DNA of 64,000 nt from Nitrosomonas oligotropha (lineage in GTDB: Bacteria; Pseudomonadota; Gammaproteobacteria; Burkholderiales; Nitrosomonadaceae): the NCBI RefSeq assembly GCF_009833085.1, contig NZ_QRBZ01000025.1, forward strand, positions 1 through 64,000, given 5' to 3'. The position numbers and the translations under genes were made by a program. The first letter of the stretch is position 1. The number at the start of each line of letters is the position of its first letter. Of the stretch, positions 5,153 to 48,936 are shown one piece after another. The notes below the pieces were generated by a model. That model was not told the DNA's origin. It made no database searches and worked only from the letters and a program-made list of their open reading frames with translations.

Positions 5153-5431
5153 TAGTTTGACATCTATTGCGCAAGCATGCCAAAAAAGCAGTTACTGGGC
5201 CTGATATTCAGGTAATATTTATTGCAGGAATGGAATGCTTTTTATACTGGTATGCGCGCGAGCTACTCTGTCCATACAAAACCTCGCATTCTGATTTTGC
5301 GAATACTTACCGGAATTCAATAACACTGTTAATTTTGAATTGAATCAAGTTCAGAAGGCAGTAACGCAAGGGTCTTTAATCTAAATGTGACGAGGAATAT
5401 TTTTCCAATATTCATTTAGGAGAGCCTCATC

Positions 5432-29124: not shown

Positions 29125-30222
29125 TCATTTTTTCCCTGAATTAGGTTTCGTTCTGCTGGATTTCGGATTTCCATCCATCAGAGTTTTGGTTGCTTTCAAC
29201 ACTCGATCAAAATCGGATTCGATCTTCTGTGTCCGGTTAAATTCCGCGTATTCGGATAAAGCCTTCTGATCAGCCTGCATCTTGCTTACACGGCCTTTAT
29301 GTGTCAGCACTTCAAATTCATTAAAGCTTAAAAACTTGTCTACACTTTCGGTCATATCGGCCATGCTCATTTGAAGCCGGTTTTCAATGATGTTTTCGAT
29401 ATAGTCGAAAAAACTGGAAATGGTACGTTCTAATCGCTTGATTTCCGGTTCGGTCAAATAGTTCTTAGCGACCGTTACATCTGAGGCGAGGATACGGCCA
29501 TGAGGTGCATTTTTCCAAGTAAGTAAGCCCATGTGAGGAGCAGCGCGATCAGCTTTCTGCAGAATGATCTCGGCTGCGGTCTGACCGGTAATGGCGTAGT
29601 GAAACTTGTTTTGCACCATGGCATAGAAGTTTTGCGTGATGTCCGATTTTGGATCGTAATCAATACTGCATTCGGCAAAGATATCAGTGATTTGCTGATA
29701 GATACGCCGCTCGCTGGCCCGGATAGAGCGGACCCGCTCGAGCAATTCTTGGAAATAATCTTCGCCGAAAACCCGCTTTCCCTGCTTTAACCGCTCATCA
29801 TCCAGCACAAAGCCTTTACGAATATATTCTTTGAGGATCTGGGTTGCCCAGATGCGAAACTGGGTAGCGCGCTTGGAGCTCACACGATAGCCAACGGCAA
29901 TAATGGCGTCAAGGCTGTAGTGTTTGAGCGTGCGCCGGACGGCCCGCCCACCCTCATTCTGAACTACCGAGAAATCCTCGGTAGTTGCCGATTCCTCCAG
30001 CTCGCCCTCAGCAAATATATTCTTAAGGTGTAAGTTGATATTGTCCGCGCTAGTCTGGAACAAATCGGCCATAAGGCGCTGGGTTAACCAAAGAGATTCA
30101 GCGTGGATGAGCACTCGTACATGTACATTTTCATCATCACCGGAATAAAGCAGAAAAGGAATCTCGGCACCTTCTGTGACCATGATGGGTTGTTTCTCTG
30201 CTGGAATCTTTTTTTCATTCAT
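29125..30222 (-). CDS. RhuM-family protein (virulence RhuM-like)
   Basis: A 365-residue soluble protein of the RhuM family. It has the N-terminal domain with LWLTQRLMADLFQTSADNIN, a winged-helix-like region, then the hallmark RTLKHYSLDAIIAVGYRVSS and FRIWATQILKEYIRKGFVLD segments. The molecular function is not known; RhuM genes are common inside type I restriction loci. I chose ATG 30222 (MNEKKIPAEK), which has GAGGAAG just upstream, over the upstream codon at 30249. It is the last gene of the hsd operon, 34 bp behind the HNH gene. Confidence 0.85.
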   Translation of the reverse strand: MNEKKIPAEKQPIMVTEGAEIPFLLYSGDDENVHVRVLIHAESLWLTQRLMADLFQTSADNINLHLKNIFAEGELEESATTEDFSVVQNEGGRAVRRTLKHYSLDAIIAVGYRVSSKRATQFRIWATQILKEYIRKGFVLDDERLKQGKRVFGEDYFQELLERVRSIRASERRIYQQITDIFAECSIDYDPKSDITQNFYAMVQNKFHYAITGQTAAEIILQKADRAAPHMGLLTWKNAPHGRILASDVTVAKNYLTEPEIKRLERTISSFFDYIENIIENRLQMSMADMTESVDKFLSFNEFEVLTHKGRVSKMQADQKALSEYAEFNRTQKIESDFDRVLKATKTLMDGNPKSSRTKPNSGKK

Positions 30223-30255
30223 ATACTTCCTCAGAATATACTTGTTCAATGCCGG

Positions 30256-31356
30256 TCAAGACACTGATGCCAATTCACTGTGCCAGGCTGCAAGACGTGC
30301 GGGTTCAAGCATCGCCGAGCACAGCACTTGATGCACTTCATGGTGGGGTTGGCTTGGCAACAAATCGGCTTGCCACTGCTGCACATAGGCTTGTACATCG
30401 GCAAGTGTGTGTCGTGTTTGTGCCTTCTTAACTCGGCATCGTTCCCGTCCACGAAGAATATCCTGCTGATTGGCATACTCCGCTTTGAATTCACGTGTCC
30501 AACGATCGGCAAGATTGAGCAACTGACTGAGATTATCCACCTTTGGTTGATCAGCCGTCTCGATAGCTGTGCATTTCACTGTTAATTCAGGCAGTACATA
30601 ATCAAGGTGGAACTTTCCATTGGCAGAGCGGAAATAGGGATGAAACCAATCGTCGAAGCTGCCCGCGCTGTGCACGTCCTTCTCGCCTTTATTTGCCGTT
30701 GAATTACACTCGCCGCAGATGGGAAGCAGATTGTCGGCACAGACGCTGAGCAAAGGAAAGGCACTCTTGGCGATCCAGTGATCCACCTCGGGCGTCTGGC
30801 CCAGTAAACCGCCACACAGCACACACACTTCATGGGCGTTGGGATTAGGATTCTGACGATGTGCTTCACGGAAGGCCTGTACGAAATTCGCATAATTTAT
30901 GCCTCCAATCGCTACTGGAGTTCCATCAAACAAGTACGGTAAGCCACTGCGAAAACCTTTTTCATAGAAAGCCATCATTAGCGGCTTGAATGCGCTCCAT
31001 GCAGTTTCGGCTACAACTGGCTTTGTCGCTGGCCAAGCTATGGGATTAGGTTGAAATTGATCGGCTAATCTCGATACTGTCAATATCCAGCTTCGAAGCG
31101 CGTTCTTTTCATTTACCGGAGTACTTGCAATTTCATTCGCATGTGTAAGCAAAGCTTGCCCTGCATCAATACGCTGCAAGAAAGTCCACAACCATTCCGC
31201 CTCAATGTGACTTGGCATTCGAGCTTTCAGATTATCCGGAGTGATATCTACAACATGAACATTCTCCTCGCATAACCATAGTGAAAACTTCTGCATCAGC
31301 CGTTGGCACGCCGCCAATGCAGGAGAGCAGGAAACATAATGAATGGGCTTAAGCAT
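30256..31356 (-). CDS. HNH endonuclease, PtuB-like partner of the ATPase
   Basis: A 366-residue protein. The N-terminal 185 residues have no recognised domain. An HNH nuclease module lies in the middle: a zinc pair CVLCGG, the catalytic EVDHWIAKSAFP, then the Asn of NLLPICGECNSTANKG with the second zinc pair CGEC. Its start overlaps the ATPase stop by eight bases (ATGCTTAA), so translation is coupled. An SMC-like ATPase plus HNH protein is the composition of the Septu (PtuA-PtuB) anti-phage system. Assignment to that system is inference; the large N-terminal part is longer than in typical PtuB. Confidence 0.8.
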   Translation of the reverse strand: MLKPIHYVSCSPALAACQRLMQKFSLWLCEENVHVVDITPDNLKARMPSHIEAEWLWTFLQRIDAGQALLTHANEIASTPVNEKNALRSWILTVSRLADQFQPNPIAWPATKPVVAETAWSAFKPLMMAFYEKGFRSGLPYLFDGTPVAIGGINYANFVQAFREAHRQNPNPNAHEVCVLCGGLLGQTPEVDHWIAKSAFPLLSVCADNLLPICGECNSTANKGEKDVHSAGSFDDWFHPYFRSANGKFHLDYVLPELTVKCTAIETADQPKVDNLSQLLNLADRWTREFKAEYANQQDILRGRERCRVKKAQTRHTLADVQAYVQQWQADLLPSQPHHEVHQVLCSAMLEPARLAAWHSELASVS

Positions 31357-33142
31357 TCCCGCTCCGCCACATATTCAACAAAGTGCGCAATTCGCTACGA
31401 TAAAACCCGGACCCCATGCGCAAGATCAATTGTTCTAATTCCGCAATCTCTGCGGGTGTACCGGTAGCTTGGCGTAGTTTTTGTTCGATGAACTCCTGTG
31501 CGCGCTTGCCAATACTGTCATCGGCGTCAAAAACAGTCATCATTAAAGCACTGGGATCAGTGGCAAACGTTGAATCGGTAACACTGCGTATCCTCGATCC
31601 ATTCGCCGTTTTCTCTACCATCACGATTTCGTTGCTGAATGCATCCGAGAGCATGATGGAAGAGTGTGTCGAAATCAGAACATCGTTGGCAGTATTGCCA
31701 ATAGCATGATCAATGATGTCTACAATTTCACGCTTCCATCGATCATTGAAATGCGTTTCCGGTTCATCGAGTAGCAGCAACGCATCCTGCTGGCTTTCCA
31801 GCAAATGAAACAATGCCATGCGCCCCAATACCATCCGTTCGCCATCCGACAAATCCTCGTAGCGCAGCACGCCGATATCCTGTTCACTTGTATCTGTACC
31901 GGCTTCGGGAACTGGCTGGCGGCGCAAGCGCAACAGCACCTCGTCAAACAAGCCAGCTTGATTCAACTCCAGCAAGCGCTTGAACAAATCGAAAGGAGTG
32001 GCATTTTCGGCGCCACCAAGTAAAGCCCACAAGGCTTCACCTTGGGTGAAGCTTGTGCTCAGATCGACAGTGCGTGTTGAGGAATCTTCTAAATTGCATG
32101 CACCCTTCAGGTCGTAGATCAATAGCCGACGTACCTCGAAGGGATGCGGTTCAGCAATCACCTCACCGGCGCACAACCACCAGTCATGCGCGGTTTCGCA
32201 TAGCTTGCGATCCCAGTTATCCGCTTGTAAACGGCTACGAAAACTCACCGACACCAGATGGTGCCAACCACCCCGTTCCAACAGTTCTTGTAGCGCATTC
32301 TTGTTATCGTTACGGGAAAGGAATTTGGCCATTGCAGCATCTACCTCGGTTCGCCCCGGGTAATCGGCTGTTTCTACAAAAGCTTGGGGTAACGCTACCG
32401 CCAGTAGCGCACATTTGAGCAAAGTGTCATCCAGTAGGATGGGACGGCGGAATAAATCGGAATCGAGCGGTGTCTGGCTCTGACTCACTCGTGCTGCACG
32501 GGAAGATTCTTGTCGTGCGGCTTCCAGTGCTATTTCTTGGGCATTGGTCCATCCTGCGGGGCGTTCATCGCCCAGAATTTCATCACTAGACTCAAACAAG
32601 CCCTGCGCATCCTGATTTCGGCTCCAAACCGAACGCCAGGGCTGGAGGTCGCCAGTGGTATAAGCCAGCACGGCCGAGGGTAATGCGATCTGCGGTGGAG
32701 TGCTGTCGCGTAACGGCCAGCTCCCAGGCACAATCAATGCGGAGAAGCCCGGCACTAAGGGTACGCCCTTTAGATTCAGGTACTCAATACAGGTATCAAA
32801 CACTTCTTGGCCATTTCGGTCATCAAAGGCAAAACGCTCATGCATCCACAAACTGGCTTGCTGGCGGTTATCGGGACAATGCAACAGCAGCGTGCGATGA
32901 TTAGGCGAACCACGCATTCCCAGCTCGTAAATCAGGCTGACTGGAAATGGCGGCACTCGCAGATCGGCCAGCGCCAGAAACACCTCGGCCACCGCGCGCA
33001 GCAGGTTCGACTTGCCGCTTCCATTGAGACCCACAACAAAACGAATGGCGCATTCACGCGCCAACGGCGAACCACTGGCAAAGCATATCTTGATATCCGT
33101 GATCGGCGGATAATTCTGCAAGTGCAGGTATCGCAGCCTCAT
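31349..33142 (-). CDS. SMC/ABC-like AAA ATPase of the restriction operon (PtuA-like)
   Basis: A 597-residue ATPase. Walker A is VGLNGSGKSNLLRA near residue 40, right after an SMC-like N-terminus (MRLRYLHLQNYPPITDI). The ABC signature region is YEDLSDGERMVLGRM, Walker B is LLLLDEPETHFN and the H-loop is LISTHSS. There is no TOPRIM or DUF2813 nuclease domain that would make it an OLD protein. Its start overlaps the hsdS stop (ATGA) and its stop overlaps the HNH gene. It is probably the sensor/regulator for the HNH nuclease, as in PtuAB, or a restriction-associated ATPase acting with Hsd. Confidence 0.82.
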   Translation of the reverse strand: MRLRYLHLQNYPPITDIKICFASGSPLARECAIRFVVGLNGSGKSNLLRAVAEVFLALADLRVPPFPVSLIYELGMRGSPNHRTLLLHCPDNRQQASLWMHERFAFDDRNGQEVFDTCIEYLNLKGVPLVPGFSALIVPGSWPLRDSTPPQIALPSAVLAYTTGDLQPWRSVWSRNQDAQGLFESSDEILGDERPAGWTNAQEIALEAARQESSRAARVSQSQTPLDSDLFRRPILLDDTLLKCALLAVALPQAFVETADYPGRTEVDAAMAKFLSRNDNKNALQELLERGGWHHLVSVSFRSRLQADNWDRKLCETAHDWWLCAGEVIAEPHPFEVRRLLIYDLKGACNLEDSSTRTVDLSTSFTQGEALWALLGGAENATPFDLFKRLLELNQAGLFDEVLLRLRRQPVPEAGTDTSEQDIGVLRYEDLSDGERMVLGRMALFHLLESQQDALLLLDEPETHFNDRWKREIVDIIDHAIGNTANDVLISTHSSIMLSDAFSNEIVMVEKTANGSRIRSVTDSTFATDPSALMMTVFDADDSIGKRAQEFIEQKLRQATGTPAEIAELEQLILRMGSGFYRSELRTLLNMWRSGNA

Positions 33143-34869
33143 GCAGAATCCTCCTGCTCTCCCAGCGCCTTGCGTAAGTTCTCCACATCGGCAAGGCGTG
33201 TGGATTCTTCCGGCCGCAACGGGCGGAACGCCTTCAGATATTCGCGCTCACCGGTTTCGAGGCTCTGCTTGGGTAACGTTACTTTGGCGATCAGACCCAA
33301 GGCCGCCAACTGACCGAGCGTGCGGCGGATACGATTGTTCAGTGTCGGACCGAAAGCTTGCAGTCGTTCGGCCACCTGCTCATCATCACAAAAACCGGCA
33401 AATACATCCGGATCTTCGGCCAGCAAAGGGTTTCCGGTTTGTTCGCAGTACTCAGAAAATGCAACCAACACCTGCCGCTGAAATTCGCTAAGCTCGCCGA
33501 GCAGCCAATGGCGTGCGGGGCGCACCGTAGCATCCGCTTGAGCCGTAACAGTGATCACTCCTTCGGCGCTTGCATTGATGATATTGGCGCCGCGCTGGCG
33601 TAACAGAGCATCGCGCGCATTTGCTGCATCAGCAACTTCGGTTGTGTGCTTGTCTCTCCAAACAGCTGTCAATTCACCAGACAGTGCGTAAACGCTCAAT
33701 GCCTCACGCAGGCCATTTGCAATGCTTTCCGACTTGGCAATAAGTTGACGAAGCTCCCGAACTTGCAACCAGAAATCACGGAACCATTCCTGCTCAGCGA
33801 TAGGGGGGACTGGCAACTTCACCTTGGTCAAGTTTTCGCCGCTCAGATTACTCTGACCGGCGGTTGTTCGAATGGCATTTCTCATTGCTGCTCGCCCATA
33901 GGCACTATTCAGGAATGCACTCAGATACTCTGGTAACAAACGTGTCGTATCGGTTCGCAAGCGAATTAAATACGACGCATAGACCATGGCAAATTTGGCT
34001 ATGTCTTCAGTTATGGGTGCAGAGCGACCAACATAGTCAGGATTGCCGTTAGAACGAACAATCAACACATCTGCAGAAGTTAGGCTCAGGCGTTTCAGTT
34101 CAATCTGCGTGAGATCGACATACTTCAAGTCCTCGGTGTCGACTTCACCTCCCATCACATTCGGGATGCGAAGAACCGCGACACCCGATTCAGCAGTGGC
34201 ATCCGCTGAAACTGACGTGCCATATCGGGCCTCCACCAAGGTTCCGAGTTGCTCCCACTCAGGCTTCGCACTAGAGAGTACCAAGCGATCCAGAGCCGAC
34301 TTGATCACCAAGTCGAGTTGCAAGCGTCTTAATTGCTGATTCTGGGCTGCCTCCGCCTGCCGCAGCACATCGACAATGCGCTGTTGTTCGGGGAGTGTAG
34401 GAAGAGGGATCTTGAATGATGCGAGCGCGCTAGTCTCAATGCCCGCTTGACTGATCCATCGTTTTGCCCGAGTCTTGGAATATCCTATCGCCCACAACTG
34501 GTGCAGGTAACTGGCCAGATATTCCGGTATCACCAGTTCGCGCTGCACCCGCAGTCGCGTCATATGATTAGAAAAAACATATTCGCCTTCTTGATCAAAC
34601 ACGGCGGTCTTGCCTACCCATTCCTCGCTGTTTGTGTTGTTGAAGATGACGTCACCCTTTTTCAAGGTATATCGTTCTCCTTCCTTTACACTGGCCGATA
34701 TGTGTTTAATCCCTTCGAAGGTAATTTTTCCATCTGGCGAAACGTTGTGTGTGCGAATTTGTGGTGTCGTACCCTCATCTTCTTCGCCAGGCTTTTGTGC
34801 AAAACCTGGCTGCAGATCAATAACGATATTGCCAACGGTCGTTTCTCGCCAGCTTTCTGGCAATTTCAT
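33139..34869 (-). CDS. hsdS: Type I restriction specificity subunit HsdS with C-terminal extension
   Basis: A 576-residue DNA-recognition subunit. Target-recognition domain 1 (about 1-150) is followed by the helical conserved region LPTLPEQQRIVDVLRQAEAA, then domain 2 (about 200-345) and the second conserved region PIAEQEWFRDFWLQVRELRQ ending near ALSGELTAVWR. An added segment of about 145 residues follows, with a helical LLGELSEFQRQVLVAFSEYC and a winged-helix-like GQLAALGLIAKVTLP. Ordinary HsdS ends near 400-450 residues. It overlaps hsdM and the ATPase gene by four bases each. The target site cannot be read from the sequence. Confidence 0.9.
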   Translation of the reverse strand: MKLPESWRETTVGNIVIDLQPGFAQKPGEEDEGTTPQIRTHNVSPDGKITFEGIKHISASVKEGERYTLKKGDVIFNNTNSEEWVGKTAVFDQEGEYVFSNHMTRLRVQRELVIPEYLASYLHQLWAIGYSKTRAKRWISQAGIETSALASFKIPLPTLPEQQRIVDVLRQAEAAQNQQLRRLQLDLVIKSALDRLVLSSAKPEWEQLGTLVEARYGTSVSADATAESGVAVLRIPNVMGGEVDTEDLKYVDLTQIELKRLSLTSADVLIVRSNGNPDYVGRSAPITEDIAKFAMVYASYLIRLRTDTTRLLPEYLSAFLNSAYGRAAMRNAIRTTAGQSNLSGENLTKVKLPVPPIAEQEWFRDFWLQVRELRQLIAKSESIANGLREALSVYALSGELTAVWRDKHTTEVADAANARDALLRQRGANIINASAEGVITVTAQADATVRPARHWLLGELSEFQRQVLVAFSEYCEQTGNPLLAEDPDVFAGFCDDEQVAERLQAFGPTLNNRIRRTLGQLAALGLIAKVTLPKQSLETGEREYLKAFRPLRPEESTRLADVENLRKALGEQEDSA

Positions 34870-37389
34870 TCCCGCCCCTCCACCATCGCCAGCAACGTGT
34901 CCAGTTCGCTGATAATCTGCTGTTCGGTGGCCTTAAGCTCGCCAATCAACTCGGCTACACTCTTGTCGCTCTTGAGCTGAGTGAAGTCGAACGGTTTGTA
35001 TTGCCCGGCGGACAAGTTCCAGCCACGGGCTTCGATACAGTCCGGGTCGAGCAGATCGTCTTTGAGCACACCTTTCTCGTCATATAAGCTATTCGTTAGC
35101 ATCGCCTCAACATAATCACGGCGTACCAAACCATCGGCATCATGCGAACCGATCAGTTTGCCGTCGTCTGATTGCCATTCGTCGTTGCGCATCCATGCGC
35201 GCACGGGCACCACCCAGTGCTTGGCGGCTTTCAGTTCGGTAAGCTGATCGATAGCGAGACTGCGAAGTGTAACGTCGAAACCGTCGAGCTTAGCGACTTC
35301 ACGCGCGCAAATTTCGATACGTTCGATGATGTCAAAATCGACTGGAGAATAACTGGTGAACGGCACAGTCTGAGGATTCGTAGCAGCATTTTCATGAAAA
35401 ACAAGCCCCTCTGCCAATGCATTTTTAGTCAGATCTTTCCAGAATGGCAATGCTGGCGAGTCTTCTGGCTCGAAGAAACTTTGCACATTCTTTGTCGCAC
35501 GGTTGAACTCTTGCAGTGGCATTTTGATGGCTTTCTGCCATTGACTTCGAAGCTGTTCTTTGGTCATAGTCTGATTGACTTGCCATTGATCCAAGACCGA
35601 TCTGGCTGAGGCAGCAAAATAATGCACGATGGTGTCTCGTAGATATTTGCCGTAATCCCTACGTACCTGCGCCTCGGCCTCTTTCGGACCGGCCGGTAAT
35701 TCAGCAAATAACTCATGGATACCCCATACCTTGCCATCCCACATTCTGGTATCAGGTAAATTCGCAAAGGCTGCACCCGCCGGTGTAAGCTCTTCACCAG
35801 TATCGCGCAGCAAGGCTTGGCGCCAACGCTCGTTACGAAAACTCGGTTGCAGCAGGGTTTTTTCATGCCGCTGCGCACCTTCGCGGCCGTGGATCCGCCA
35901 GCTCTTAAACTTTTCCAGTCCATCCCACAAATCGTTGCGCTGGCCAGGCCGGGGATTGCGCTTGGCGTCGAGCGAGTAACCGTCTTCTTCCACTTCGTAA
36001 AACCAGACGTACTCGGTGCGAGGCGCAATATTGCCGGTGAAAGTTTGCTTGTCGTCGCGGCGGGTCTCCTTGCGGAAAACGAGAATAGAAGTTTTAACGC
36101 CGGTATAAGGCTGAAACACACCACCGGGCAAGGAAATCACGCCTTCGACCACGTGCTCGGTAAGCAGCTCGCGGCGCAGACGCATGTGTGCATCGGTATT
36201 GCCGAACAGCACACCTTCTGGAATGATGACCGCACAGCGTCCGCCCACTCGCAGCAGATCGAGCATTAACCAGAGAAACAATAGCTCGCTTTTATTAGTC
36301 AGCGCGTCCTCTTTTTTCTTGCCTTTATCAGCAGCGCGAGGGAAAAGCTTGCTGTCTTTTTCCAGATCGTTGCTATCCACCGTGCCCGTAAAAGGCGGAT
36401 TGGCGAGCACGAAGTCGTAGCGTTCTGATGTCAACAGCTCGGTCGAGCGTTTAGAGGGGTCGCGCTTGGATAGGCTATCCGCTTGATACAGGTGAGGGTT
36501 ATGGATGTCGTGCAATACCAGATTCATCCAGCCGATTCGTGCCATGGTGCGGTCATTATCAAGACCTACAAAATTGGCACCCTGGTGAATCGCAGCGTAT
36601 TGCTCGGGTGTGGCTGCGGCACCATCGGTGCGGTGCGGGGTGCCGTCCCATTCCAACACCAGGTTCTCTTGGGCTGAGTACTTGCGCATCATCGATCCGG
36701 CAGCGGGTACTGAACAAAAATCCGCCAGTACCCGCTGCCGGATCGATGATGCGCTGGCCCGGCTCGGGATCAAGCAGTTCGACCATGAAGCGGATTAGAT
36801 GACGAGGTGTGCGGAACTGACCGTTCTTACCGGCCGTAGCCATTTCGCTGAGCAGATATTCAAAAGTGTCGCCCATGATGTCCTGGGCAGCGGAACCTTC
36901 ACCGGCGCGGGCAAACAGTTGGTCAATGGCATCGATGGCATCGCTCAGCACCTTGCCCTTGTTGGGATCAAGCTGAAAGTAGGCATCCGCCATGCGGTTG
37001 TTGAGACTGGCCAGTTCGGTATCATCTTCATTGCTTGCCAAGCGCTGATCTATGGTGCGCAACCAAGGAAAAACCTTATCAATGAGATGCACTGGATTAG
37101 TTTTTTCCTGCCGGATATAGCTCCACCGGCAACTGGAAGCATCTAGCTTTTCTCGAAGCGCGGCCTTGTCCTTTTCGGGTGCTGCTTGAATCTGAGCCTC
37201 CTCGTCCGGGGTCAGTGCATAAATTGATCGCAGGCCTCGGTCGGCTCTTTTCGTGTCGATATCTTCTAAACGCTTGAGAAAGAGCAGGTAAGTGATTTGC
37301 TCTACGGCCACCAATGGGTTGGTGAGGCCAGCTGCCCAGAAACGATTCCAGAGTTCATCGACTTTTTTCTTGATATGTGGCGCAAGCAT
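34866..37389 (-). pseudogene. hsdM: Type I DNA methyltransferase HsdM, disrupted by an inverted repeat
   Basis: The gene for the N6-adenine methyltransferase subunit lies in two frames. The 5' part (37389 to about 36735) has the HsdM N-terminal helical domain and the SAM motif DPAAGTGGF. The 3' part (about 36695 to 34866) resumes in a shifted frame at MRKYSAQENLVLEWDG and has the catalytic NPPF (FVLANPPFTG) and a normal C-terminus. The junction carries a perfect 27-bp inverted repeat (36684-36710 and 36728-36754). Its second arm is a backwards copy of the codons for RIIDPAAGT and shifts the frame. The start has AAAAGGA upstream. As written no full methyltransferase is made. If real, the restriction subunit would be unprotected; if an artefact, hsdM is whole. 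Confidence 0.85.
36684..36754. repeat. Perfect 27-bp inverted repeat inside hsdM
   Basis: Arms 36684-36710 and 36728-36754 are exact reverse complements, with a 17-base spacer 36711-36727. The right arm, read on the minus strand, encodes the HsdM SAM-binding motif. The left arm is its mirror copy and introduces the frame break. It is far longer and more perfect than chance hairpins elsewhere in the window. Confidence 0.95.
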
Positions 37390-37409
37390 TCAGTTTTTCC
37401 TTTTAGCGG

Positions 37410-40154
37410 TCATACAGCTTCATCCAGCCAATGGTTGGCGAGATTAACAAGTTCTTCGATGTCCTGCGGCGGAAATAGCGACTCCACGCTGCCAACGCGC
37501 GACAGTGGCGGTTCACTGAGTGCCGCGCGGCTGATGCGTCCATGGCGGAGTACCGCTGCTTTTACCGCTCGCAAGTAGTTCAATTGGTTAGCACGCAGAT
37601 AACCATGCGCGGCGATGAATGCGTCAAATGCTTCATTAATGCGCTGTTCACGGTTGGGCAACTGTGTGCTTTCACAGAGAATATGGCGCAGGAAGTCCGC
37701 CAGCGAAGCGGCAGGCGCTTCGAAAGCCTTACGCAAGATGTCTTCGGTAACGAACAGATCAGCCTGATTCAGCGTTTCGCTGATGCGTTCCAACTCTTCA
37801 TCAGTCAAGTTCTCCCCGTTTTTGAGTTTGGCTAACTCGGGCAGTTGATCGGCCAAACGACGCACCAGCGCCTCTACCTGCTCGCGATAGCTTTCGGCAA
37901 ACGCACCTTCACCGGTGGGGCCATAGATAATCCAACTACGCTGAGTGATGCTATCCGGGAGGTTGATCTCGATGGTGTTCCCCGGCGTGCTAGTGCGATA
38001 GCGCATCAAGGGGGCGAATATGGTTTGTAGTGTCATTAGTCGTGGCATGTCCAGATGCTGCCAGAAACCGATTGAGCACATCCATGCGCGTTGTTCGGCG
38101 ACGCGCTGCACTTCGGGGATGTTATCGGCTAAGCCGGTAATGGCTTTTTGGATGTATTCGCGGATATTGGCTTGCTCGTCAGCATCTCCGTTGAGCCAGG
38201 CCACGGTAAGGCGCTCGCACCAAATGTGAAATTGAAGCTCATCCAGGCCCGTCAAGGGTGCGAGCTGCATCAATGGCGCAATAGCCTTGGAAAGATGTTG
38301 CAGCATACTTTGTTCAGGTGCAGGCCATTGCTGCGCTAGCGCATCAAGCTCATTCCAATGCGGGCGTACGTTGATACTTTGCCGAGGCAAAGCTTGTAAC
38401 ATGGCGCGCAATTCATCAATGGCAGCTTGTGTGTCTTGCTTCTGAGCATACAGGAGCTGCCATTTTTCGAGTCGTAGTCGAAATAAACGGACGGGTAACG
38501 GCTCGCTGGGGTGATCAATCTCACCGTCGGGCTTTAGCTTGAAGTAGGCAAAGTTTTTCCAGTAATCAATAATCAAAAAATCTTTTTTTATCTCACCTGA
38601 AGCTTTATCCGTGTGCAACCGGGTGCCGCGACCGATCATCTGCCAAAACTTGACCTTGCTAAATACCGGTTTGGCAAAGACCAAGTTTTGAATGGCGGGA
38701 ATATCCACGCCGGTATCCAGCATGTCAACCGAGATAGCGACACGTGGCATGGTTTTGTATTTGAAATCATCCAGCGTAGCGTCGGCACGCTCCATATGAC
38801 TATCGATGATTTCAGCCATGCCTTGCCGCTGTAGCTCGGGGTAAAGGCGGTTGAAACTTTCGTACAAACGTTTGGCGTGAGCGTGACTAACAGCAAAGAT
38901 AATCGATTTGTGCGGCAGACCGCGAATATCTTTTCGGCTCTTGTCCATAAACTCGCGCACCATGGCATCGTTAGTGCCATGATTGATAATGCCTTTCTCA
39001 ATATCGCTGCCATCGAAGTTAAGTTCATCGAGTTCCACTCCTTGATCGCGCGCCATTTGCTTTAAGGGTTCGGGCAAAGCATCGCCTTGAATGCCTTGAA
39101 GTTGAAAGTTAGTTTGCACATCCAACACACGATAGTTCACCAGGTTCTTATCGGCGACAGCCTGTTCGTAGCTGTAGTAGTAGCTGGGAACGCCATCACC
39201 ACAATCAAATAATTCGAAAGTATTGTGATCGATGTAGTCCGTCGGTGTGGCTGTCAAGCCGAGCTGAATGGCATCGAAGTGATCAAAAATGGCTTTGTAG
39301 CGCTGATAAATGGAACGGTGGCTTTCATCGGCAACGATCAAGTCGTAATAACCGACCGATAGACGGGAGTACACTTGCATCATGCTCGGATAGGTAGAAA
39401 ACTGAATACGCGCACCGGAAGTTTCACCGGCTTCAATGCGTGCAAGGCTTTCGTTAGGTAGGTGGAATTTGAATTCTGACATTGCCTGCCGAACCAATTC
39501 ACGGCGATCAGCCAAAAACAGTACGCGTTGCACGCGCTTGGCGCGCAGCAAGTTATCCACCAATGCAATGGTGGTTCGTGTCTTGCCTGTACCGGTAGCC
39601 ATTACCAATAGGAATTTGCGCTTAGCGGCGTCAATTCCTTCCGTTACTCGGCGTATCGCTTCGTTTTGATAATCACGGCCAGCGATTTCTGCATTGATCG
39701 TTACGTCCTTAAGCGACTGGGCATATTGCCGCTGGTGGCGCAGGCGTTCAAGGTCATCACGTGTATAAAAACCTGCTACTTTTCTAGGGGCATAGCGCTC
39801 TCGATCCCAAAATTGAATTTCTTTACCATTAGTAAGAAATATAAATGGATCTAGATCAAACTTTGTTTTGATTGCATCTGCGTAATCGGCCGCTTGACGT
39901 TTTCCAGAAAGCTCATCCCGGGATGAGCGTTTCGCTTCAACTAAAGCAATTGGTTTGCCATCCGATCCAAGCAACACGTAATCTGCAAACTGATCATTTC
40001 GATAAGTGCTATCCGGTTGGGCAGCTTTGAGCAAAAACTCTTCGAGGAGCGTAAACCGGCTACGAGACCAGCCTGCTTGTGCGAGCTGTGAATCAATAAA
40101 GTCTGCTCGCGTTCGGGCTTCATTTAGGTTTGATTGAATCATTGATTGCTTCAC
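37410..40154 (-). CDS. hsdR: Type I restriction enzyme R subunit HsdR
   Basis: A 914-residue restriction and translocation subunit. The N-terminal PD-(D/E)xK nuclease has the motif YVLLGSDGKPIALVEAKRSS. The SF2 helicase part has Walker A VMATGTGKTRTT, the DEAH-type box VADESHRSIY, motif III GLTATPTDY and the C-terminal motifs MLDTGVDIPAIQNLV and MIGRGTRLH. A helical C-terminal domain binds the methylase core. The predicted start is GTG 40154; ATG 40142 (MIQSNLNEAR) is an alternative. The frame is open from end to end. It heads the hsdR-hsdM-hsdS-ATPase-HNH-rhuM operon. Confidence 0.94.
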   Translation of the reverse strand: MKQSMIQSNLNEARTRADFIDSQLAQAGWSRSRFTLLEEFLLKAAQPDSTYRNDQFADYVLLGSDGKPIALVEAKRSSRDELSGKRQAADYADAIKTKFDLDPFIFLTNGKEIQFWDRERYAPRKVAGFYTRDDLERLRHQRQYAQSLKDVTINAEIAGRDYQNEAIRRVTEGIDAAKRKFLLVMATGTGKTRTTIALVDNLLRAKRVQRVLFLADRRELVRQAMSEFKFHLPNESLARIEAGETSGARIQFSTYPSMMQVYSRLSVGYYDLIVADESHRSIYQRYKAIFDHFDAIQLGLTATPTDYIDHNTFELFDCGDGVPSYYYSYEQAVADKNLVNYRVLDVQTNFQLQGIQGDALPEPLKQMARDQGVELDELNFDGSDIEKGIINHGTNDAMVREFMDKSRKDIRGLPHKSIIFAVSHAHAKRLYESFNRLYPELQRQGMAEIIDSHMERADATLDDFKYKTMPRVAISVDMLDTGVDIPAIQNLVFAKPVFSKVKFWQMIGRGTRLHTDKASGEIKKDFLIIDYWKNFAYFKLKPDGEIDHPSEPLPVRLFRLRLEKWQLLYAQKQDTQAAIDELRAMLQALPRQSINVRPHWNELDALAQQWPAPEQSMLQHLSKAIAPLMQLAPLTGLDELQFHIWCERLTVAWLNGDADEQANIREYIQKAITGLADNIPEVQRVAEQRAWMCSIGFWQHLDMPRLMTLQTIFAPLMRYRTSTPGNTIEINLPDSITQRSWIIYGPTGEGAFAESYREQVEALVRRLADQLPELAKLKNGENLTDEELERISETLNQADLFVTEDILRKAFEAPAASLADFLRHILCESTQLPNREQRINEAFDAFIAAHGYLRANQLNYLRAVKAAVLRHGRISRAALSEPPLSRVGSVESLFPPQDIEELVNLANHWLDEAV

Positions 40155-40427: not shown

Positions 40428-40859
40428 CTACTGATGCCGGGAGTGCGCCGCATCCTTGAGCAACACCGCTTTGCTATATTGCAGGAATTCGTCCAGATGG
40501 TTTTCTATCACCGCTACAGTGATGGATAATTGCAGCGCCTGATAATCATGCACCGCGATGTTGCGAAACCCCACCATGCGCTTGAGTTTTTCTGCCAAGA
40601 CCAGATCAATCCAGCCCGCCTGCGCCAGCAGCGTAAACACATCGCGCGCACTTTGCGGAATACCCAGCCGTTCACGCCGGATCAAGTGCTGCCCCATATC
40701 CAGTGCCGCTTCGCAGGCGCGTTGAATGTTCAGAATAGCAGCATCCTGCCGTGTGGGATTCCCGGCAAATGTGGCGGGGTCAGCCGCATATTCCTCACGC
40801 GCGCGCAGCACACATCGCTCAATGGTGGCGGCTTTGTTGAGCAAGACATCATCGGCCAT
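40428..40859 (-). CDS. hepT: HepT-like HEPN toxin
   Basis: A 143-residue HEPN-domain protein of the type VII MntA-HepT toxin-antitoxin family. It carries the RNase motif Rx4HxY as RNIAVHDY in MVGFRNIAVHDYQALQ. It starts at ATG 40859 (MADDVLLNK), which overlaps the 3' end of mntA by 11 bases. In studied pairs HepT is an RNase that is silenced when MntA adds AMP groups to the Tyr of this motif. Confidence 0.88.
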   Translation of the reverse strand: MADDVLLNKAATIERCVLRAREEYAADPATFAGNPTRQDAAILNIQRACEAALDMGQHLIRRERLGIPQSARDVFTLLAQAGWIDLVLAEKLKRMVGFRNIAVHDYQALQLSITVAVIENHLDEFLQYSKAVLLKDAAHSRHQ

Positions 40860-41244
40860 ACACGCTCCCCCGGTGTTGAATGTCATCGATCAGTGCATTG
40901 CGGGCCTCATCCAGCGCGGTCTTTTCGCTCAGAATGGCCACTTCATAAAGCGCCGCCTGACCATCTTTTTGCCACCAGCGCTCGCCCGTGATGATAATTT
41001 GGTATTGCATGACCGTCGATGCCGCCCGCAGATCGAGTAAGTCCACCGCGCAACCCACATCATCGGCTAATCCCCCGGCCAGATCGAACATCAGCAGTGG
41101 GTCGGCATAACCAGGCACCAACACCGCCAGATCCAGATCGCTTTCAGCGCTGGCAAGGCCTTGAATGCGGCTGCCAAAGGCATACAGCGCCAGCAGACCG
41201 GGTAAGCGGTTTTGCACTCGCTTCACAATGATTTCTTTGTTCAC
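40849..41244 (-). CDS. mntA: MntA-like nucleotidyltransferase antitoxin
   Basis: A 131-residue minimal nucleotidyltransferase. Its signature GSx10DxD is complete: GSRIQGLASAESDLDLAVLV. It would inactivate HepT by AMPylation. I chose GTG 41244 (VNKEIIVKRVQ), which has a perfect AGGAGG at 41249-41254, over TTG 41262. It overlaps hepT, the usual antitoxin-first arrangement. It lies about 100 bp downstream of rapA on the same strand. Confidence 0.88.
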   Translation of the reverse strand: MNKEIIVKRVQNRLPGLLALYAFGSRIQGLASAESDLDLAVLVPGYADPLLMFDLAGGLADDVGCAVDLLDLRAASTVMQYQIIITGERWWQKDGQAALYEVAILSEKTALDEARNALIDDIQHRGSVYGR

Positions 41245-41348
41245 GCGGCCTCCTGATTTCAAGGATTAGGACAGATTCTGGCGTGTATCATACCTTCTCA
41301 CTACTGATTTCACTGCTTTTTTCGTTATTTCCGAGCTACCGGATGGCT

Positions 41349-48814: not shown

Positions 48815-48936
48815 ACGGCCATAATTTAACGGTCGATGCGGTAGCGCATGAAACACCCGTTGAATTAAATACACACATTCGCTCTTAATTCTGAATTATT
48901 AAAGCGAATGGAGGCTCAATCCATAAGGAGAAATTT

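Follow-up and report, generated by a model that had tools for sequence, protein, structure and literature searches.

With their Escherichia coli lacZ reporters, Klaric, Perr and Lovett detect the conversion of a quasipalindrome of 18 bp, carrying a 4-bp frameshift, into a perfect one (PMC7202029, in the portions of the text used here). The break in the hsdM gene described below is like these quasipalindrome (QP) reporters and the E. coli thyA hotspot in that, following the Ripley model, one arm of an inverted repeat appears to have been copied into the other, which changes several bases and shifts the frame (same portions of PMC7202029). However, the QP reporters restore a gene, whereas the hsdM case is natural, longer (29-base arms), and gene-destroying. 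It also resembles inverted-repeat template switching in yeast coding genes and the short template switches of apes, which the relevant parts of the respective papers describe as homogenization of the arms in one multinucleotide event, found by comparing relatives (PMC8604942, PMC7954356). Unlike these eukaryotic examples, the hsdM case is bacterial and its product is a broken frame. Inactivation of a type I hsdM is itself known from spontaneous loss-of-function mutants of group A Streptococcus, but the mutations listed in the pertinent sections of that study are deletions, an insertion, and stop and missense changes, which were selected by transformation (PMC8084154).

The hsdM break is a new and unusually legible natural case of a known mutation type in an environmental bacterium. 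A search of the open-access literature, which is not proof of absence from print, found no template switch in an hsd gene. When comparison with relatives discloses the donor arm, the matches, and the pre-mutation state all together, a natural bacterial case is good material for testing how often template switching, as opposed to independent small changes, breaks genes. Moreover, what has been annotated as an ordinary frameshifted pseudogene can go back to one templated event, a point of relevance to software that treats frameshifts as sequencing errors.

A perfect inverted repeat at the break in hsdM

The window, which is the whole stretch of 64,000 nucleotides of the Nitrosomonas oligotropha contig analyzed here, contains an hsdR-hsdM-hsdS cluster on the minus strand. 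All three components of a type I restriction-modification system were found together by Pfam and PADLOC, with hsdM in two pieces. Both hsdR (37410–40154, minus strand; 914 aa) and hsdS (33139–34869, minus strand; 576 aa) are uninterrupted according to their open reading frames and the Pfam and PADLOC matches, in agreement with the earlier note, which had described the other hsd genes as open. The first open frame of hsdM (36559–37389, minus strand; 276 aa) covers the Pfam domains HsdM_N and N6_Mtase as far as motif I. The remainder of the gene lies in another frame (34866–36692, minus strand) and contains the rest of N6_Mtase including the NPPF motif. In the first frame, MLAPHIKKK...QRIIDPAAGTGGFLFST, the reading frame is lost after the residues FST within the second arm of an inverted repeat, and 48 foreign, out-of-frame residues (229–276 of 276) follow up to a stop at 36559. 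The methylase domain is thus not unbroken: position 75 of the N6_Mtase profile ends the first piece, position 76 begins the second, and the cut separates SAM motif I from the NPPF motif. The open frames and the split profile confirm the former claim that the frame shifts exactly at the repeat. The second hsdM piece starts with two in-frame ATG codons (36692 and 36689), both of them within arm 2.

The repeat spans window positions 36684–36754 and consists of two arms of 29 nt that are 100% complementary (29 of 29 pairs) and a spacer of 13 nt. The 27-base arms and 17-base spacer reported previously cover the same 71 bases but assign the two innermost bases of either arm to the spacer; the statement that the second arm is an exact backwards copy of the SAM-motif codons holds for all 29 pairs. 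Arm 1 (36726–36754, minus strand), the first in the reading direction and the putative template, codes for RIIDPAAGTG, the SAM-binding motif I of the methylase. The spacer or hairpin loop (36713–36725, minus strand), delimited by the repeat search and the comparison with relatives, codes for part of GGFLF, and the same two analyses place arm 2, the exact reverse complement of arm 1, at 36684–36712 on the minus strand.

Within the window, this is the sole perfect inverted repeat with arms of at least 14 bases and a spacer of 3–60 bases. With positions 36600–36800 excluded and the same spacer range, the longest arm elsewhere measures 13 bases, and the longest arms in 60 random first-order Markov sequences of 64 kb each were 9 to 13 bases long. 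A survey of 61 other loci (472,517 bases, including partly overlapping copies, with the five best repeats per locus inspected) revealed two perfect repeats that reach 18 bases, both in locus L020, the better one having 22. The 29-base repeat is more than chance. Its RNA fold is very stable, with −84.1 kcal/mol for 141 nt as compared to −46.0 kcal/mol (sd 3.95) for shuffled sequences (z −9.64). The 22-base repeat of L020, which belongs to a Pseudomonadota MAG, is located at 5289–5344 of that locus and has a 12-base spacer.

The site in related hsdM genes

The state of the site before the break can be read from 29 relatives, comprising 28 of 29 homologous loci and the locus of Nitrosomonas sp. 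sh817 (G111). Left out of this comparison were L029, which is outside the E-value limit, L036 and L049, which repeat L014, L062, which repeats L048, and four loci derived from the window. All 29 relatives have ordinary coding sequence, FS(T/A)QQ(Y/H)L, after motif I and no second arm. Arm 1 is the conserved side, with 19 to 28 of its 29 bases being the same in the relatives, and by this comparison it is the ancestral one. The outer eight bases of arm 2 (36684–36691, minus strand), the probable return point, are exact in 23 of the 29, and in seven they are fully complementary to arm 1 of the same relative. At the inner eight bases (36705–36712, minus strand), the probable switch-out point, the relatives match the window at five to eight positions (at least seven in 10 of the 29, all eight in L011 only), and within each relative's own sequence pairing occurs at two to six of the eight positions. 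Between these ends the relatives have 9 bases and the window has 13 (36692–36704, minus strand), a net gain of four. Every one of the 13 new bases is the reverse complement of arm 1. Hence, the site in the relatives has the features of a quasipalindrome, in that the repeat is imperfect and matched at either end, more weakly at the inner one, and the changed bases in the window can all be accounted for by the other arm as template. The alignment proposed in the earlier note, which left open whether relatives have a plain sequence or an imperfect palindrome at this site, thus revealed plain coding sequence that holds an imperfect palindrome.

The same picture emerges at the protein level. Among the best 120 of 4338 protein relatives, 118 carry the matching pattern and all 118 stay in frame beyond the site; of the other two, P0012 begins downstream of the site and P0013 does not fit the pattern. 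The same break occurs neither in these 118 pattern-bearing proteins nor in the 29 loci. One of the 29 relatives, the hsdM of Pseudomonas benzenivorans (L033, 5890–6174), has a stop just after the same site (MRK*SAQ), four residues past FS(T/A)QQ(Y/H)L. Judging from its sequence, this gene is not intact and represents a separate break near the same place.

Comparison with Nitrosomonas sp. sh817

A syntenic locus is found in Nitrosomonas sp. sh817, a member of the same genus, where hsdR (922 codons), hsdM (815), hsdS (565), an ATPase gene (588), and an HNH-type gene (368) follow in the same order and are all open. Synonymous distances (dS) between the two genomes are 0.226 for hsdR, 0.69–1.14 for hsdM, and 1.27 for hsdS. 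These uneven distances suggest that the hsd region (window 33139–40154) may be a mosaic assembled by recombination. The dN/dS ratio is 0.065 for hsdR; in hsdM it is 0.076 for the part upstream of the break and 0.117 for the part downstream. Relaxed selection was considered as a clock for the break but cannot date it, given a dS of 0.7–1.1 in hsdM. The low ratio of the second hsdM piece, whose dS is 0.689, mostly reflects time before the break and shows no more than that the break is not old.

In sh817, the gene runs with the leftward replication fork leaving dnaA, if the origin is at dnaA, so that the coding-sense strand would be the leading strand. The G+C skew of the window's plus strand, which is positive in five of eight blocks and weak in the rest, does not support this; the two lines of evidence disagree on the replication strand. 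At about position 48900 of the window, collinearity with sh817 jumps from 3.05 Mb to 2.63 Mb, and the genomes are not collinear beyond about 48.9 kb; this may be either a rearrangement between the genomes or a join of the draft.

Origin of the repeat and alternative explanations

While DNA was being synthesized, one quasipalindrome-associated template switch very probably made the repeat perfect and broke hsdM in the same step. The earlier proposal of template switching or quasi-palindrome correction gains support from the imperfect palindrome of the relatives and from the identity of the 13 new bases with the reverse complement of arm 1. We infer the polymerase event and its strand from this comparison, taking the assembled DNA to be true, and one event would be the simplest account of the whole change. 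In the ancestral hsdM, the motif I codons and the codons 12 to 20 residues downstream would have formed the two sides of an imperfect inverted repeat. On a growing coding-sense strand, synthesis may have passed through the spacer and the inner portion of the present arm 2 before the strand folded back, used its own arm 1 as template, and resumed on the proper template where the outer match lies. This exchange of about 9 bases for 13 would have made the 29-base repeat perfect and, at a net +4, shifted the frame. Copying of the coding-sense strand would require only a simple fold-back, whereas the opposite sense would need the other parental strand as template. Since the inner stem pairs at only two to six of eight positions within the relatives, the evidence locates the switch-out point no more precisely than to the inner eight bases.

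Alternatively, the repeat could be a fold-back artifact of amplification or library making (e.g. MDA or PCR) that became fixed in the assembly. Strand-displacing amplification yields inverted-repeat chimeras at short inverted repeats, as reported in the sections of PMC9484634 that bear on this point. The draft genome comprises 70 contigs, and the allele was found on no other contig. A search with the truncated protein recovered no second genome or independent contig with the allele; its single identical match (P0121, whose cluster has two member sequences) lies on a contig of 76,970 bases, the same size as the window's own. The 29-base arm had no exact match in viral_contigs, the repeat region had no near match among phages, and hsdM gave one weak plasmid match of 134 bases (Pantoea). 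However, the amplification chimeras in those sections of PMC9484634 are fold-back hairpins with alignments of about half the read length, while here the proper template is regained within 31 bases. Judging from the 8-base matches, an assembler using words longer than about 8–10 bases could have made neither junction unless the reads held it. The completeness of 100 and contamination of 0.04 would also be unlike single-cell amplification, and the window contains no second long perfect repeat. We therefore regard an amplification artifact as unlikely.

The very stable hairpin, if formed in RNA (−84.1 kcal/mol over 141 nt), and the open hsdR and hsdS might be taken to indicate a phase-variation or expression device for hsdM, in line with the on/off variation considered in the earlier note. 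This idea found no support and is scarcely credible, because the replaced bases are gone from the locus, so that a second switch could not restore them, and the genome contains no second copy of the region. Neither an invertible or repeat-tract sequence nor alternative forms, as would mark a phase-variable type I system, were seen at the locus, which was observed in one form, and the perfect form occurs in none of the 29 loci or 118 proteins. The genome has three further N6-methylase matches (contigs C6, C12, and C62), and HsdR-type helicase matches lie close to those on C6 and C12. It is also very improbable that the two hsdM pieces still form a working enzyme, either as a split protein initiated at the ATG codons in arm 2 or through ribosomal frameshifting. 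Both pieces are open, in-frame ATGs occur exactly where the second one begins, and the dN/dS of that piece is low. Yet these ATGs sit in the stem and have no ribosome site evident by eye, the domain is cut between two of its motifs, and the low ratio was, as noted above, mostly shaped before the break.

Likely functional consequences

HsdM is needed for DNA binding by HsdS and for cutting by HsdR, as stated in the parts of PMC8084154 that deal with these subunits. A broken hsdM should therefore give neither methylation nor restriction, and an open hsdR should be harmless; on these grounds, both activities of this type I system likely have been lost. The open hsdR beside a broken hsdM, which the earlier note had held to need explaining, is accordingly less of a puzzle than claimed. 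One might go further and see a built-in one-way fuse in the motif I codons of this HsdM family, which would form an imperfect hairpin convertible into a perfect one by template switching, although we consider this quite improbable. If it were true, one step would switch off the type I system without the danger of the nuclease being active alone, and breaks of this kind would be expected to have arisen repeatedly and independently in related hsdM genes.

Neighboring genes

Behind hsdS (window 29125–33142) follow a gene for an AAA ATPase with PtuA-like matches and a gene with weak matches to PDC-M01B/PtuB (HNH-type defense) and no Pfam family, and after these a RhuM-family gene (PDC-S05). The ATPase and HNH-type genes are also located behind hsdS in sh817. 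Together, the ATPase, PtuB-like, and RhuM-family genes may form a second defense unit, as suggested by their matches and arrangement. On the other side of the cluster, at 40428–41262, a HepT-like gene overlaps a nucleotidyltransferase gene, as in HEPN-MNT pairs.
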